From Streptomonospora mangrovi (GTDB lineage Bacteria; Actinomycetota; Actinomycetes; Streptosporangiales; Streptosporangiaceae), in NCBI RefSeq assembly GCF_027604915.1, contig NZ_JAJAQC010000015.1, forward strand, positions 1 to 64,000: a stretch of 64,000 bases of DNA, written 5' to 3'. The translations under genes were made by a program, and so were the position numbers. Numbering within the stretch: position 1 is the stretch's first letter; every line of letters starts with the position of its first letter. Shown piece after piece: positions 7,076 through 13,297 of this stretch. The notes under the pieces were generated by a model, which was given only the letters and a program-made list of their open reading frames with translations, was not told the origin of the DNA and searched no databases.

Positions 7076-7567
7076 ATGCCTTCCCGCCTCCGCACCCTGG
7101 CCGTGCTGGAACTGGTCAACATCCCGCTGTTCGCCGTGGTGCTGTTCGGGGTCCTCCGGTTGCCCCCGGCGCCCGCGAACCTGGCCGGGTTCGCCCTGTT
7201 CGCGCTCCTGCTGGTCGAGGGCTCGGCCTACTGGTGGGCGAAGGCCGCGCAGGTGCGTTCGCGGTCCTTTCGCCCTGCGGGGCTGCCGCTGTTCCGCATC
7301 CTGCGGATGGCCAACCCGGTGCTGCTGGCGGCCGGGGGCGCGGTCGTCGCGTGGGGGTTCGCCGGTCAGGTGCCGTGGACGCACGTCTGGCCGGGGGCGG
7401 GGTTGGCGGTGTTCGCGCTGGCAGAGCACGTCAACTACTTCCACGTGCAGCTCTCCCACCAGAACCGCGCCGATCTGGCGCGCCTGCGGCGCACCCGGCG
7501 GCCGCACCGATCCCACCTGGCGCGCGACCTCGCCCGGTCGGCGAAGAACAGCCCGCCTCCTCCGTAG
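7076..7567 (+). CDS. hypothetical four-helix membrane protein
   Basis: 163 residues with four hydrophobic segments at about 8-29, 35-53, 80-98 and 104-121 and a basic C-terminal tail. Internal features include EGSAYWWAKAAQVRSR and a His-rich end of TM4 (EHVNYFHVQLSHQNR). I recognise no named family. ATG 7076 is chosen because the encoded hydrophobic helix starts right after it. The operators of the next gene begin five bases past the stop. Confidence 0.7.
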   Translation: MPSRLRTLAVLELVNIPLFAVVLFGVLRLPPAPANLAGFALFALLLVEGSAYWWAKAAQVRSRSFRPAGLPLFRILRMANPVLLAAGGAVVAWGFAGQVPWTHVWPGAGLAVFALAEHVNYFHVQLSHQNRADLARLRRTRRPHRSHLARDLARSAKNSPPPP

Positions 7568-7571
7568 ATGA

Positions 7572-7616
7572 TGTTGGCTCGACCAACAAAACAGGCTATT
7601 GTTGGTCAAGCCAACA
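7572..7616 (+). promoter_or_regulatory. two tandem 17-bp operators over the promoter of the SnoaL-like gene
   Basis: TGTTGG-N5-CCAACA occurs at 7572-7588 and again at 7600-7616, centres 28 bp apart. A promoter can be read through them: -35 TTGGCT (7574-7579), 18-bp spacer, -10 TATTGT (7598-7603). A dimeric repressor bound here would cover both boxes. No regulator gene is adjacent, so control is in trans. Confidence 0.75.
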
Positions 7617-7638
7617 TTGGTGCGACCATCAAGGAGTC

Positions 7639-8055
7639 ATGGTGTCCATCGCCACGGAGACGGCCGACCGCCTGGAGATCACCGAACTGTTCGCCCGACT
7701 GGCCGCCCTGCTGGACGGCCACCGCCCGGAGGACGCCGCGAGCGTCTACCACGAGGACGTCGTGGTGCACTCGCCGCGCGGCGGTGAACTGCGCGGCATC
7801 GACGAGGTGACCGCGTTCATCCGGAGCAGCAAGGTGGAAGGGGAGCACGCCCAGCACGTCAACGGCAACGTGCTGGTGCACCTCGACGGCGACCGCGCGC
7901 GGGCCACGGCCGACGAACTGGTGTACTTCTACCGCGACGGCCAACCGCCCCACCAGACCAGCGGCCTGCGCACCGCCTGCACCGCCGTGCGGACCCCCAA
8001 GGGCTGGCGGTTCAGCGAGTACGAGATCACGCTGGCCTGGACGGACAAGAAGTGA
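7639..8055 (+). CDS. SnoaL-like / NTF2-fold protein
   Basis: 138-residue single-domain alpha+beta-barrel protein of the SnoaL-like class. The pattern is an N-terminal helix ELFARLAALLDGHRPEDAAS, then YHEDVVVHSPRGGELRG, and C-terminal strands WRFSEYEITLAW. Such proteins act as small hydrolases, isomerases or ligand-binding proteins; no substrate can be assigned. AAGGAG lies only 2 bases before ATG 7639 and 5 bases before GTG 7642, so the true start may be GTG 7642. It stands alone between an operator-bearing promoter and a strong terminator, so it is a regulated monocistron. Confidence 0.8.
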   Translation: MVSIATETADRLEITELFARLAALLDGHRPEDAASVYHEDVVVHSPRGGELRGIDEVTAFIRSSKVEGEHAQHVNGNVLVHLDGDRARATADELVYFYRDGQPPHQTSGLRTACTAVRTPKGWRFSEYEITLAWTDKK

Positions 8056-8578: not shown

Positions 8579-9550
8579 TCAGGAGGAAGGGCGGGCGTCG
8601 AACCGGTCCAGCGCGGCGGAGACGTCCCGGGCGCCGACGGTGTCGGGGAAGCGCATCACCCACCAGGTGGCGCCGGCGTCGCGGTAGGGGGCGGGGTCGG
8701 CGCCGGGCGGGCCGCCGACGGCGACGTCGAAACCGTCGAGGCCGCCGCGCCGGCGCTCGATCTCGGCGAGCATCCCCCGCAGCCCCTCGGGTGAGGTCTC
8801 GGGGCACAGGCCGTCGAACCGCGCGGCGCGGCGCAGCGGCGCGGTATCGCCGGGGCGCGCGGCGACCCAGATGGGAATGCGGGGCCGCTGCACCGGACGC
8901 GGCAGGGACCGCACGTCCTCGATGCGGAAGTGCGGCCCGGCGTGCGTGGTCCGCTCACCCGACCACAGCCGGCAGATGACGTCGAGGCTTTCGTCCAGCA
9001 CCGCGTCGCGGGGGCGGGGGACGTCCGGGAGGTCGGCGGTGGACCCGGCGGGCGGTTGGGCAGGGCCATCACCCCTCGCACCTGCGGCATAGGGGCGCCC
9101 GTCCCCGCCGCTCCCGTCACCGCCATGGGCGTCGCCGGTCCCATCGGCGCCGTCGAGGCCGCCGGCCCTGTCGCGGCTGTCGGCGCCACCGGTCCCATCG
9201 CGGCCGTCGCCCTCGCCGGACTCACCGCCGCCGTCGGCGTCGCCGGCCCCCAGGACGAACCGGCCGCCGCTCAGCCGGTCCAGCGCGACGGCCTGCCGCG
9301 CCACCTCCTGCGGCCGCCGCCGGGCCAGCGGCGTGGTCCAGGTGCCGATGGTGATGCGCGTCGTGCACAGGGCGATGGCCGAGAGCGCGATCCACGGATC
9401 GCACACGGCGAGGCCGGCCGAGGGCCGCACGACGTGGTCCCGCAGGAACACCCCGTCGAACCCGGCCGCCTCGGCCTTCTCCGCAAGTTCGCCCAATACC
9501 CCGGGATCCGCAAGCTCCCCAAGGGGCGGAAGGTACAACGCATACCGCAT
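8579..9550 (-). CDS. LLM-class flavin-dependent oxidoreductase with Gly/Asp-rich insertion
   Basis: 323 residues of the luciferase-like monooxygenase TIM barrel, F420- or FMN-dependent in actinobacteria. Typical are MRYALYLPPLG at the N-terminus, AGFDGVFLRDHVV, and TTRITIGTWTTPLARRRPQEVARQ followed by LDRLSGGRFVLGAG. Between residues ~104 and ~155 there is a low-complexity insertion made almost only of Gly, Asp, Ser, Thr and Arg. Ordinary homologues run straight from the LGAG strand to the loop there. A strong GGGGAGGGGAG lies before ATG 9550. Substrate unknown. Confidence 0.85.
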   Translation of the reverse strand: MRYALYLPPLGELADPGVLGELAEKAEAAGFDGVFLRDHVVRPSAGLAVCDPWIALSAIALCTTRITIGTWTTPLARRRPQEVARQAVALDRLSGGRFVLGAGDADGGGESGEGDGRDGTGGADSRDRAGGLDGADGTGDAHGGDGSGGDGRPYAAGARGDGPAQPPAGSTADLPDVPRPRDAVLDESLDVICRLWSGERTTHAGPHFRIEDVRSLPRPVQRPRIPIWVAARPGDTAPLRRAARFDGLCPETSPEGLRGMLAEIERRRGGLDGFDVAVGGPPGADPAPYRDAGATWWVMRFPDTVGARDVSAALDRFDARPSS

Positions 9551-9853
9551 CGGCCTCTCCCCTCCCCGAACGGCGCGTCATGTAACCCACAGCCTTCACC
9601 AGACCCGTGGATCCCCTGCTCGCGGGGCGGAGAGAGCGGCATTACCCCTGGTGGCGGGGCCGCCAAGGCCGCCGCACCAGCGGCCGGAACGCCTGCGGCG
9701 AGGACAGACCGAACGGCGGACCGAGAGCACATTCCACACGCACACCGGAACACCCCTGGGTGACGGCACGGACGGTCACCAGCTTGATCCAACAGAGCTT
9801 AACTCGACAGCTAGGCACACATACGCTTTAACTTATGCAATCTAGGCATTAAG
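9551..9853. other. left boundary of the AT-rich island
   Basis: 303 bases. The first ~200 are GC-rich host DNA with no convincing gene. From about 9780 composition drops abruptly. A weak promoter can be read as TTAACT (9799-9804), 17-bp spacer, TACGCT (9822-9827). I found no copy of a tRNA 3' end here that could serve as the distal attachment site. Confidence 0.45.
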
Positions 9854-12175
9854 GTGCATTTCTGGCAAGGTGCTGGATTATTCAAACCTGCCGCGTACCC
9901 TAAATGCATGGCAGGCACCCTCGCATACAACCTAGGCGTTCGGCATATATTCCAGCGGAAGTTCGATTCTCCAGAACTAGCCAAGGCACTAAAAGACTGC
10001 CACTGGTACTTGATATCTAGGCGACCATCCGTCCGAATAGTCAACAACTCAGCGCAGATATACGACAACATATTGACTGCGGTTTTTGAAATCCGGACAG
10101 AGGAAGAGAGAACGGAACATCGGGAGCTAGGAATGGATCTAAATACGATAGGGGAGGCGCGCGACTTAAAGATACACACCGACGGATCATATTTTTCACT
10201 ACGCACCAAAGAAGCAATCTATCACGGCGACGCGTGGGCTCTTGCTTCTTTCCTTTCTGGGGCAGACGCGGGGTTGGCTACCCAGGAGGTCATGTACGTA
10301 GGACAAGCTTTCAAAGGAGGCACGAGCAACGCTTGGGACCGAACGTCGAAGCACAAGAAACTTCAGCGTATATATGAGGATCACAGTGGGTTAAGTTGGG
10401 ATATTTTTGTTTCCCCCCTGGTTCTCAATAAAAGAACATGGAGCAGTGATGATCACCTGGATGACACAGACGACGGACCGAGCATGCGACTGTACTACGA
10501 GAAGTTCGCCCATGAAAACGGCGATATTAGGCAAGCATCTGTTGATCTGATCGAACACTCGATGATCAACTACTTCAAACCGCCGTACAATGAGAAGCTT
10601 ATTGGATGGAGTCCGGAAACGCCGACAGCCTCTATGAGGGACATGCGAGCGGCTGGGTTTCGCCTTCTCTATGTGCACCTCGACGGATGGTTTGGGCTAT
10701 CCAGGTTTGTCTCTGAGGCGCGACCTGATGCCGTTCGAAGTCATTTTATAACTCATGAGTTGATCAGCCAATCAGACGCAAGCAAGACATTGAAACAATG
10801 GACACTGGAGGGCGTTGCTTACCGGGAAGGACATAAGATTTTTGCAACGGAAGTTGAGGACGCCGATGTGCACTTGCGTGTCTTTGGAGAAGAGGCCCCG
10901 GAGGTCAGGCGACCGCCGTCGTTTCATTTTCCGCGTGGGTCTTCTCTCAACACAGGCACGAAAAGTACTCCTGCACTCGCTGGGTTGAGCGATATACGCC
11001 GCAAAATTCAGGAACAGCGCGAATCTGAAAAAATCGAGTCGCAAGTCCCGGTTCAACCGACCTATGAGCCTCATTCGGGGACAGTGAAGGTGGGATGGTA
11101 CACGGATACGAAGGAGCCTTCTTTTTGGCGCCTGAATTTTCCCACCGGAGGGGTGTGTTCCGGCCTTATACTCGGCGGAGACGGCTCCGGCAAAACGAAT
11201 ACTCTTCGCGTTATAATGACAGAGACTCTTAAATCTGGGGTTTTCGTCATCGCACCCGCTTTCCCGAGATCGCCGACAAGCGAAATTGATGGTCTTCGAA
11301 GCTTCACTCCTGATCCATCATGGGTCTCTCACAATAAGAAGCAAACGATTTTCAACCTTGAAAGAATGGCAAGAGTAATCGACGCAAGGAACGCGCACAA
11401 GGGGTACTCAGTGCCCTCGAAAACTGCACCGGGCATCATGATTTTTATCGACGATTCCGATGAAATCCTGAGTGACCCTCTGGGTGCAGAAATCGCTGAA
11501 AAGATCCTAGTCTCGGGTAGCCTAGCAGGGGTTGGCTTGGTCCCGGTGGTGCGCGATATCGATTCGTTGCCCTGCCATAAATCCTTGATACGCCTTCTCA
11601 TAAATACGGAGAATGTCCTCAATTTTTTCTGGGATGACCCCTTCCTCGTCCACAGCCTCCGCGCCATACATGGAAAACCTCGAAGGCGAACCTACACGCC
11701 GTCTTCGAATTTGACATTTATGCTTGACAATCATCCAGATTGCATTTCAGTCGGAATCCTATGCGGCGTGGCCAATTCCCCATCCATGCCGAAAAAAGAA
11801 GCTCTTCGATGGGCCGAAACGGAACTCTCGCAAAGTGGTGCGAGGTTGGTTGGATGGACAAAACAACATGGAGCGTGGGTCACATTCGACGCCCTATCAG
11901 CGACCATCTGGCAACTCAGGCGCCATCCGGATGACTGGGTTATCTCCCATGTCTTATCGCAGCATGGCCTCCGTGAGCCGGTTCGTCTGAGCCATGCCAT
12001 CGCGTGGGCCAGTAATATCATCCACTCTAAGTTTGACGTTCAAATCGGACAATGGAATTGTGGCCCCGGGACACTTCCTCAATTCTCCTCAACTCTATAT
12101 ACGAATACAACCGGAGAAATTATATTAAAGAAACAAACCGGTAAATTGAGTGCACTAATGAGGCATCTCTATTGA
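9854..12175 (+). CDS. putative GIY-YIG-like nuclease fused to a FtsK/HerA-type P-loop ATPase
   Basis: 773 residues, AT-rich and with codon use unlike any neighbour, so probably acquired. Residues ~146-250 resemble a GIY-YIG endonuclease: MYVGQAF (147-153), R163 and H167 in RTSKHKKL, then E234 and N246 in IEHSMINYFKPPYNEKL. This is the Tyr/Arg/His/Glu/Asn order of that fold. Residues ~405-650 are a P-loop ATPase: Walker A GGDGSGKT (441-448), Walker B GIMIFIDDSDE (527-537) with D533/D534. There are no membrane segments, so this is not an ordinary FtsK or TraB pump. Start is GTG 9854; ATG 9908 (codon 19) is the alternative, and neither has a good ribosome-binding site. DNA-translocase plus nuclease suggests phage defence or DNA processing. 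The nuclease call rests on motifs only. Confidence 0.6.
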   Translation: MHFWQGAGLFKPAAYPKCMAGTLAYNLGVRHIFQRKFDSPELAKALKDCHWYLISRRPSVRIVNNSAQIYDNILTAVFEIRTEEERTEHRELGMDLNTIGEARDLKIHTDGSYFSLRTKEAIYHGDAWALASFLSGADAGLATQEVMYVGQAFKGGTSNAWDRTSKHKKLQRIYEDHSGLSWDIFVSPLVLNKRTWSSDDHLDDTDDGPSMRLYYEKFAHENGDIRQASVDLIEHSMINYFKPPYNEKLIGWSPETPTASMRDMRAAGFRLLYVHLDGWFGLSRFVSEARPDAVRSHFITHELISQSDASKTLKQWTLEGVAYREGHKIFATEVEDADVHLRVFGEEAPEVRRPPSFHFPRGSSLNTGTKSTPALAGLSDIRRKIQEQRESEKIESQVPVQPTYEPHSGTVKVGWYTDTKEPSFWRLNFPTGGVCSGLILGGDGSGKTNTLRVIMTETLKSGVFVIAPAFPRSPTSEIDGLRSFTPDPSWVSHNKKQTIFNLERMARVIDARNAHKGYSVPSKTAPGIMIFIDDSDEILSDPLGAEIAEKILVSGSLAGVGLVPVVRDIDSLPCHKSLIRLLINTENVLNFFWDDPFLVHSLRAIHGKPRRRTYTPSSNLTFMLDNHPDCISVGILCGVANSPSMPKKEALRWAETELSQSGARLVGWTKQHGAWVTFDALSATIWQLRRHPDDWVISHVLSQHGLREPVRLSHAIAWASNIIHSKFDVQIGQWNCGPGTLPQFSSTLYTNTTGEIILKKQTGKLSALMRHLY

Positions 12176-12205: not shown

Positions 12206-12856
12206 GTGTTTGATGACATTTCATTCCGTCGATCGGAGCGCCGGAGTTCCGTGGGCGTGCGTTGTGCCGCGCCCGACAAGGACTGCTGCCACACCACCCT
12301 TTCGACGCCCATGGTGAAGTCAATGCACGCCGTCCTGCGCAACGCCCTCGAATCGGCAACGCGAGAGGCAATCATCCCGTGCAACGTCGCCAAGCTCGTC
12401 AAGGTTTCGCCGCCCCGCTACGTCGTGAATCGCGGGCTGAACCTAGTGCCGCCGAAAACCGACGACTCTTCTCGCATCGTCCCGCTGCCCGACCTCTGCG
12501 TGAAAGCGCTTCGGGAGCACCGCAACCGCCAGTTCGCCGAACGGTCGGACGCCGCGCCGGACTGGGCGGAGAACGGGCTCGTCTTCCCCTCCCGACGCCG
12601 GACGCCGCTGGAGCCGGACGACCTGCGCCGGAACTGGGAGCCGCTGCGCCGCAAGGCCGGTCTCGACGGCGTGCGCTTCCACGACCCCCGGCACACGTGC
12701 GTGACCCTGCTGCTCAACCTCGACGTCCCGCCGGAGGTGGTCCGGGAGATCCTCGGGCACAGCGACATCGGCGTGACGATGGCGTTCTACGTCCACGGGT
12801 GGCTGAACGACAGGCGGCGGACGCTCGGCAGGCCGCCTGGGCGCGCCTTGGAGTGA
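12206..12856 (+). pseudogene. decayed tyrosine recombinase (site-specific integrase)
   Basis: 216-residue frame with ribosome-binding site GAAGGAG before GTG 12206. Residues ~38-70 match the end of the core-binding domain (MVKSMHAVLRNALESATREA). The frame then jumps to LVPPKTDDSSRIVPLPDLC, so about 75 residues containing the first catalytic Arg (normally ALGLRWxD) are missing. Box II is present as HDPRHT, followed by LGHSDIGVTMAFYVHGW, which holds the catalytic Tyr region. The true N-terminal arm-binding domain is replaced by unrelated sequence. Loss of the first Arg should abolish strand cleavage. It points at tRNA-Phe, the presumed integration target. Confidence 0.8.
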
Positions 12857-12927: not shown

Positions 12928-12946
12928 TCTTCGCACTGCTGCTGTG

Positions 12947-13020
12947 TGGCCAGGGGCGGGGTCGAACCGCCGACCTTCCGCTTTTCAGGCGGACGCTCGT
13001 ACCAACTGAGCTACCTGGCC
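12947..13020 (-). tRNA. tRNA-Phe(GAA)
   Basis: 74-nt cloverleaf. The acceptor stem is GGCCAGG / CCTGGCC, discriminator A, anticodon loop CTGAAAA (anticodon GAA), T arm GGTTCGACCCC. No CCA encoded. Last tRNA of the Glu-Asp-Phe operon and presumed target of the integrase remnant. Confidence 0.97.
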
Positions 13021-13045
13021 CCAGGCACACCGGTCGGTGTGTGAG

Positions 13046-13120
13046 CGGTCCTGACGGGATTTGAACCCGCGGCCTCCACCTTGACAGGGTGGCGAGCACT
13101 CCTAACTGCTCCACAGGACC
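13046..13120 (-). tRNA. tRNA-Asp(GTC), copy 2
   Basis: Identical over all 75 nt to the tRNA-Asp at 1618-1692, anticodon GTC. It lies 25 bp upstream of tRNA-Phe in the same transcript. Confidence 0.97.
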
Positions 13121-13224
13121 TTGTTCTGTTGTACGCGGTGGTCGGCACCTGGTCCGGCTGGTGACTCGCTCCGCGCTCCGGGTCTTATTCTGCCAGACCT
13201 TCGGCAGTGGTTCGACCGGAGCCG

Positions 13225-13297
13225 TACCCCCAACCGGATTCGAACCGGCGTTACCGCCTTGAAAGGGCGGCGTCCTAGGCCACTAGACGATGGGGGC
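13225..13297 (-). tRNA. tRNA-Glu(TTC)
   Basis: 73-nt cloverleaf. The acceptor is GCCCCCA / TGGGGGT (G-U at the first pair), the anticodon loop is CTTTCAA (anticodon TTC) and the T arm is GGTTCGAATCC. First gene of the Glu-Asp-Phe operon. Confidence 0.97.

Follow-up and report, generated by a model that had tools for sequence, protein, structure and literature searches.

What is encoded by the long, AT-rich open reading frame (ORF) that lies beside a tRNA-Phe gene of Streptomonospora mangrovi, and on which DNA would its product act? The stretch analysed (the window) comprises the first 64,000 nucleotides of contig NZ_JAJAQC010000015.1, and the ORF, of 773 amino acids (aa) with a GTG start, runs along its forward strand (9854–12175). 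It is open throughout, the chance of a 773-codon open run at its own composition being about 1.4e-16, and its GC content is 0.505 against 0.740 for the window. A first-pass annotation had described the product as a GIY-YIG-like nuclease fused to an FtsK/HerA-type ATPase. The reading preferred here, to which we give about an even chance, is that of a single-chain, ATP-driven nuclease of double-stranded DNA (dsDNA), carried as cargo by actinobacterial mobile elements and most likely directed against rival DNA.

The fused protein and its relatives

A protein search of 341 genomes from the same family group gave some match in 22. Both halves of the protein were matched in seven of these, the window genome included (G000, G310, G349, G111, G168, G005 and G139), while the remainder matched the ATPase only (9), the C-terminal part only (4) or the N-terminal part only (2). 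One more (G565) was found among 394 genomes of the class, for a total of eight fusion genomes, with one copy (G139) frameshifted. These comparisons support a conserved fusion of nuclease and ATPase in one chain, as first annotated. In an alignment of seven of the eight, which omits the frameshifted copy, the six relatives are 37–40% identical to the window protein. Mean pairwise identity is 56% for the nuclease part, 38% for the ATPase and 30% for the C-terminal region (residues 601–773), a third part of the protein that was absent from the earlier description.

Fusion copies are present in the named records of Frankia nepalensis, Nocardiopsis sp. JB363, Microbispora amethystogenes and Actinomadura sp. 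WMMA1423, four loci that came from an alignment-based scan of genome contigs and of which a single-protein query found none. The whole fusion gave no tblastn match among 72,556 plasmid and 50,697 phage records, and there was likewise no match in scans of viral contigs with the fused-family alignment, whether alone or with two standalone relatives added. A fusion-profile search matched 178 of 297 genomes of the order and 84 of 394 of the class, the rows listed being mostly of the ATPase region alone.

The annotated ORF is real, but the gene probably starts at ATG 9908 (residue 19) and not at the listed GTG, because the motif M/V-AGTL-x-(Y/F) aligns there in six of the seven rows of the fused-protein alignment; the seventh (L029, genome G005) has its called start further downstream. 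Hydropathy (Kyte-Doolittle, mean over 19 residues) peaks at 1.62, just above the usual membrane-helix threshold of 1.6, and since this peak lies within the ATPase no membrane helix is expected, in agreement with the annotation. Decay or breakage is seen in two copies that closely resemble each other: that of G139 (L030) has its frameshift after Walker A, and that of G168 (L028) diverges from the family at its 3' end, with a matching piece on another contig.

A candidate GIY-YIG nuclease at the N terminus

Residues 19–310 match PHROG family 15714 (phrog_15714, unknown function) in all eight members tested, with a best E-value (E) of 1.2e-22 and one of 4.1e-13 for the window member. Standalone relatives of ~300–375 aa are found in actinobacteria (genomes G172, G254, G545 and G667), in six records of a plasmid collection (two of Rhizobium and one each of Sinorhizobium, Acinetobacter, Proteus and Rhodococcus, for one of two standalone queries) and, with standalone-led queries, at 22 loci in viral contigs, some of them partial. 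Two standalone relatives used as queries against the phage records gave no match, nor did one further standalone query against the viral contigs. A C5 methylase, the sole methylase family sought, is present in three of 17 virus records with standalone relatives, and lies ~1 kb from the relative in one of them (L150, a viral contig, record G713), the only close pair.

Conservation was judged in two sets of 20 sequences: a mixed set (A8) of 4 fused and 16 standalone proteins, the latter 15–22% identical to the window domain, and a set of 20 standalones (A10) that includes the four (L031, L032, L118 and L119) omitted from the first. The annotation had named Y148, R163, H167, E234 and N246 in the order of a GIY-YIG enzyme; all are present as named, but the first tyrosine motif, H50-x-Y52 (20 of 20 in the mixed set), had been missed. 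Invariant in the mixed set (ORF numbering) are H50, Y52, Y148, G150, Q151, R163, H167, Q171, E234, I238, F241, P243, N246, S287 and H297. All 20 standalones retain Y52, Y148, G150, Q151, R163, H167, Q171 and E234, while H50 is found in 18 and N246 in 19, the exception perhaps being an alignment shift. The nuclease-domain residues are also invariant across the seven aligned fusions. H50-x-Y52 occupies the GIY position and Y148-V-G the YIG position, with ~95 residues between the two tyrosine motifs.

A combined motif, Y-x-G-[QK]-[AS]..R..E-x3-I-x2-[FY]-x-P-x-[FY]-N, was written after viewing this family together with UvrC, and then sought in 8192 open frames (80 aa or longer, both strands), many of the loci overlapping. 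Strict matches in 93 sources comprise the window, loci of the fusion and standalone family, and 25 of 30 PF01541 (GIY-YIG) loci, these last looking like UvrC by size and sequence; among the 8192 frames the motif occurs only in the nuclease-domain family and in the UvrC-like PF01541 loci. The element common to the two is E-x3-I-x2-[FY]-x-P-x-[FY]-N.

A model of the domain from the 20-sequence alignment (numbered as the ORF minus 18) has a mean pLDDT (predicted local distance difference test) of 79.9 and a pTM (predicted template modelling score) of 0.80, and is better than an earlier full-length model from four sequences, which was poor in its N-terminal half. The Frankia copy, which has masked bases, was omitted from both structure alignments. 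In model numbering, a strand at 31–44 (H32, Y34) is followed by a strand-rich insert, a strand at 125–133 (Y130), helices at 142–148 and 150–159 with R145 and H149 within or between them, a strand at 164–181 and a helix at 209–223 (E216), with N228 in the helix that follows. The insert between the two motif-bearing strands is ~90 residues long. The GIY-YIG core has the element order beta-beta-alpha-beta-alpha, and the order in the model, beta(H50,Y52)-[insert]-beta(Y148)-alpha(R163,H167)-beta-alpha(E234) in ORF numbering, matches it. On the motifs and this order of strands and helices, a GIY-YIG fold is likely.

Several results weigh against the assignment. Foldseek searches with the domain model at E 0.001 gave no match in PDB and none in BFVD, and no GIY-YIG enzyme is among the best 50 of 1274 (PDB) and of 1426 (BFVD) rows at E up to 10; the weight of this null is softened because the insert splits the motif strands. 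The block confidence of the model is 66 and 61 at model residues 131–150, where Y148, R163 and H167 lie or adjoin. The combined motif is absent from five Eco29kI and seven GIY_YIG_2 loci, and no library model that names a function matches the nuclease domain above cut-off. Probabilities in hhalign comparisons are at most 25%, over short stretches of as few as 10 columns, and a core built from fused proteins alone scored just 18.2–19.4 against Eco29kI relatives; core-only runs in that comparison did beat 30 shuffles.

Weak matches to GIY-YIG models do occur. PF09517 (RE_Eco29kI) matches three of the 20 sequences (best E 0.041) and PF20815 (GIY_YIG_2) one (E 0.013), both far from confident; the UvrC model matches one of 20 (E 0.13), 'endonuclease' PHROG families match two of eight (best E 0.21), and PADLOC models match none of the 20. 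The standalone core scored 23.4, 19.9 and 24.6 in hhalign against the GIY_YIG_2, PF01541 and Eco29kI sets (over 10, 75 and 24 columns), above the maxima of 60 column shuffles per set (17.5, 17.1 and 19.6) and at probabilities of 4–8%; over the whole length, the probabilities against Eco29kI relatives were 3.1 and 1.3%. The profile comparisons with GIY-YIG families are only suggestive.

That the domain is no nuclease at all, its GIY-YIG resemblance being convergent or catalytically dead, would fit the absence of a fold match and of a function-naming model above cut-off. We consider this very unlikely in view of the motif positions, which vary little or not at all across two sets of 20 sequences, of the element held in common with UvrC-like proteins, and of the weak matches in two libraries, which include the Eco29kI, GIY_YIG_2 and UvrC models. 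The nuclease assignment of the first-pass annotation has gained from the conservation of the active site and from the expected element order in the model, while Foldseek returned no GIY-YIG structure and the profiles stayed below cut-off. Because the best profile matches are too weak to count, the domain is said to resemble a GIY-YIG enzyme in its working, and its membership of the superfamily is likely. This would provide a provisional function, that of a GIY-YIG-type nuclease, for phrog_15714, which has none in the PHROG library.

The ATPase and the C-terminal region

The Walker A and Walker B sequences given in the annotation were confirmed (Table 1), and both motifs, with D533 and D534 in the latter, are invariant in the seven fused rows. 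Block means over the ATPase region of the whole-protein model are ~62–92. With this model, the best Foldseek match in PDB is EccC (4.6e-6), followed by EssC and TcpA, with FtsK (2.2e-4) and HerA (9.3e-4) lower among 39 matches at E up to 0.001. By hmmsearch, EccC (4nh0) was matched at E 0.0034; the FtsK_SpoIIIE model reached a best E of 0.0011, below cut-off. An NCBIfam scan of nine ATPase-profile relatives and one Tra protein of an actinomycete integrative and conjugative element (AICE) gave TraB or EccC models for seven of the ten, all far below cut-off. The sequence and model matches together support placing the ATPase in the FtsK/HerA superfamily.

Some features point away from this placement. 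Walker B has Asp as its second acid, a position at which FtsK proteins carry Glu; ABC, AAA+, Rho and packaging ATPases are also among the Foldseek matches, whose TM-scores by query length do not exceed 0.20; and AAA_16 and nSTAND models match weakly alongside FtsK. They bear on another explanation, in which the ATPase acts as a switch rather than a motor: a trigger-sensing NTPase that releases an indiscriminate nuclease, leading to abortive infection. Besides the Walker B Asp, such a switch would suit the lower conservation of the ATPase relative to the nuclease and the sub-threshold AAA_16, AAA_22 and nSTAND3 matches in some homologues, with AAA_16 down to 5.6e-05 where FtsK_SpoIIIE reaches 0.0011 in the same protein. 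It is nevertheless quite unlikely, as the best structural matches are proteins of the FtsK-HerA superfamily and the profile relatives match, if weakly, the TraB or EccC models. Sub-threshold matches to RPT, SLT_beta, several DUFs and mad8 (E 0.008 over the P-loop) were discarded as noise.

Residues ~600–750 of the fusion are common to standalone proteins of ~375–390 aa (L034:9316-10467, L035:6367-7494 and L036:9432-10610), and the two of these that were scanned matched no Pfam family above cut-off. C-terminal domains of FtsK read target DNA.

Table 1. Positions in the window of the fusion gene, its domains and motifs, and the adjoining integrase remnant and tRNA gene
Feature	Position	Strand	Basis
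Fusion ORF as listed, 773 aa, GTG start	9854..12175	+	ORF list, composition
Probable true coding region from ATG, 755 aa	9908..12175	+	MAGTLxY aligned with homologue starts
N-terminal GIY-YIG-like nuclease domain (likely), residues 19–310, phrog_15714	9908..10783	+	Profile, alignment, model; standalone versions ~300–375 aa
H50-x-Y52, 'GIY' position	10001..10009	+	H and Y each 20/20 in mixed set; H 18/20, Y 20/20 in standalones
Y148-V-G150-Q151, 'YIG' position	10295..10306	+	Y, G and Q 20/20 in mixed and standalone sets
R163 and H167, within or just past helix after YIG strand	10340..10354	+	20/20 in both sets
E234-x3-I-x2-F-x-P-x-Y-N246, predicted metal-binding Glu, then Asn	10553..10591	+	E 20/20 in both sets; N 20/20 mixed, 19/20 standalones
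FtsK/HerA-superfamily ATPase domain, residues 398–600	11045..11653	+	Profile and structure matches
Walker A GGDGSGKT, residues 441–448	11174..11197	+	G441, G444, G446 and K447 invariant, 7/7
Walker B IFIDD, residues 530–534	11441..11455	+	D533 and D534 invariant, 7/7
Fast-changing C-terminal region, residues 601–773	11654..12172	+	~600–750 common to standalone proteins of ~380 aa
Tyrosine integrase C-terminal remnant, 201 aa (relative's copy 418 aa)	12251..12856	+	Phage_integrase E 3.9e-17
tRNA-Phe, integration site	12946..13020	-	tRNA call, comparison with relatives

Genomic setting and proposed role

The fusion gene of the window sits on a decayed element at tRNA-Phe. On one side of it, alignment to the relative G003 ends at 9628; on the other stands a tyrosine integrase cut short relative to that of G003. 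No copy of a left-side attachment (att) repeat was found in the window element. The low GC content and the integrase remnant as next gene, beside tRNA-Phe, bear out the foreign-looking island of the annotation. At the same tRNA-Phe, G003 carries an element of ~10.7 kb flanked by direct repeats (153 columns, 87%), with an integrase, RepSA and FtsK and with no copy of the fusion. These three are the modules that define an AICE in the part of PMC3218068 consulted, and by its modules the G003 element is an AICE. The corresponding element of G005 (~9.6 kb between 99-bp repeats, 96%) had one orphan ORF scanned, at the end opposite the integrase-side repeat (L108:5975-7060, minus strand; 361 aa, AT-rich at 50% GC), which gave no Pfam match at E 0.01. 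In G001, G002 and G004, tRNA-Phe carries no element of such length. The tRNA-Phe gene is an integration hot spot in the genus (12946–13297 in the window, with counterparts in G003 and G005).

The surroundings of the homologues vary. In Microbispora (L027, G111) the fusion adjoins RepSA, an FtsK fragment below threshold (E 0.0091) and an integrase next to tRNA-Gly; at L026 (G349) a TraB-like FtsK is 6.7 kb away, separated from it by regulator and HD genes; and in Frankia (L092) a transposase stands beside the fusion, with an FtsK gene, adjoining tRNA-Asp and tRNA-Phe, 6.3 kb off. An integrase fragment occurs near the G139 copy, an IS110 transposase and tRNA-Arg near that of G310 (L025), and a transposase near that of G005 (L029), where an XhoI/Eco57I-type restriction pair is 3.6 kb away. 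The Pfam scan behind these observations covered 26 of 88 called neighbour genes at six homologue loci, together with four genes of the two tRNA-Phe elements, and found no DndF/DndG, Orc/Cdc6 or winged helix-turn-helix (wHTH) partner gene among them. The restriction pair near the G005 copy speaks for the preferred reading; that, among the neighbours scanned, no other homologue locus has a recognised restriction system counts against it.

A consistent place in transfer clusters, which the first-pass annotation had set against its own proposal of a putative one-gene immune system (a proposal only partly supported here), was found in part: some homologues are on or near AICE modules, and others lie by insertion sequence (IS) elements or a restriction pair. 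The former would suit an accessory protein of the AICE, acting as nuclease or pump on the DNA of its own element in transfer, replication or resolution, as would the gene order in Microbispora and the weak ATPase profile matches to plasmid TraB and EccC. We hold such a role to be unlikely. The G003 AICE at the same site, with its integrase, RepSA and FtsK, has no fusion copy, and the few neighbours scanned at L025 and L029 include IS elements or a restriction-modification pair but none of the AICE modules. In a tree of 53 rows, moreover, the fused ATPases form one clade (100/100), the G139 fragment included, apart from two AICE-type Tra proteins, with long branches and a weak root; a third Tra protein had been prepared, and that of L026 was dropped because its match was too short. 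The same tree, with the same long branches and weak root, gives no support to the idea that the ATPase descends from the Tra protein of the AICE at this tRNA-Phe. Separate FtsK-type genes are present at the G003 AICE, L026 and L092 (only the sub-threshold fragment at L027), and because of these, and of the other homologues beside IS elements or a restriction pair, the fusion gene looks like mobile cargo in varied settings and not a transfer pump or a fixed part of a transfer operon.

Among known systems, the closest analogy is with the HerA/FtsK 'capture' anti-invader systems, DndFGH among them, that are described in the consulted portion of PMC10853773 and extended in that of PMC12839542. These too join a HerA/FtsK pump to a nuclease at mobile loci, but they are multi-gene. 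According to the former text, restriction endonuclease or exonuclease domains occur in multi-gene systems, one exonuclease is fused to HerA/FtsK, and GIY-YIG (URI) is mentioned solely as a distinct gene linked to Dnd; here there is one chain, a GIY-YIG-like nuclease and no partner among the neighbours scanned. The fusion resembles such a system in one chain and is not assigned as a member. The GIY-YIG defence enzyme CMoRE (PD-T4-3) has, in the excerpts of PMC12923530 available, a GIYxY-YIG motif and a C-terminal modified-cytosine sensor, with no ATPase mentioned there. The window protein differs in having H-x-Y (HWYLIS), with no tyrosine two residues later, the long spacing of its tyrosine motifs and an FtsK-type ATPase; the CMoRE signature is absent from it, as judged by the motif and the ATPase half and not by a comparison of sensors. 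GIY-YIG defence genes are also mentioned in the sections seen of PMC9519451 and PMC10952713.

R.Eco29kI and R.Hpy188I (PF09517; the modelled active site of Hpy188I was seen in part of PMC2630997) share the order of GIY-YIG motifs, and PF09517 matches weakly in three of the 20 sequences, but the window protein has a fused ATPase and a large insert, with no methylase-like ORF seen adjacent, and its UvrC-like combined motif is unmatched by the five Eco29kI loci examined. AICE Tra/TraB proteins and EccC (NF041214) are likewise FtsK/SpoIIIE-type ATPases of actinobacteria in a mobile-element setting; the fusion differs in its nuclease, its lack of an expected membrane segment and its own clade. From phrog_15714, matched by its N-terminal domain, it differs in being joined to an ATPase. 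No description of a GIY-YIG nuclease fused to FtsK/HerA was found in the literature searched, supplements, preprints and most subscription papers being outside its coverage. Pairs of a nuclease and HerA/FtsK are a growing theme of bacterial immunity, and the examples in the parts of the literature examined are multi-component; a one-gene version would allow the coupling of pump and nuclease to be studied with a single protein.

For an ATP-driven nuclease carried as mobile cargo, the following steps may be proposed. The FtsK-type domain, like others of its superfamily, would form a ring and run along dsDNA, and the N-terminal domain, with its conserved putative active site, would cleave whatever DNA the pump moves or holds. 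Target recognition would most likely reside, judging by position, in the fast-changing C-terminal region. The escape of self DNA would probably depend on recognition or on the state of the target DNA rather than on methylation, since no methylase-like ORF was seen beside the window gene in the ORF list, read by eye. The likeliest use would be against rival plasmids, AICEs or phages. Streptomyces-type conjugation moves DNA as dsDNA, and a narrower version can be imagined in which a GIY-YIG nuclease acquired a conjugation-type FtsK pump, the two together becoming a one-protein exclusion enzyme on AICEs that cuts incoming dsDNA and excludes rival elements; this we regard as unlikely. The place of the gene on or near AICEs leads to a testable question, whether dsDNA-conjugating elements carry nucleases against each other.

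Some further features were noted in passing. A clear Eco29kI-family restriction enzyme (166 bits) is encoded elsewhere in the window genome (C4:72214-72678; L156), with a second PF09517 match ~3 kb away (C4:75311-75565; L160), and the ORFs beside the first resemble, when read by eye, a Vsr-type nuclease and the end of a C5 methylase. Within the window, upstream of the fusion gene, a 19-bp inverted repeat (7571–7617; 95% complementary, 9-base spacer) lies, terminator-like, between 7076–7567 and 7639–8055, and five overlapping copies of a GC-rich repeat with a 27-base period occur at 9100–9276, inside the ORF at 8579–9550.

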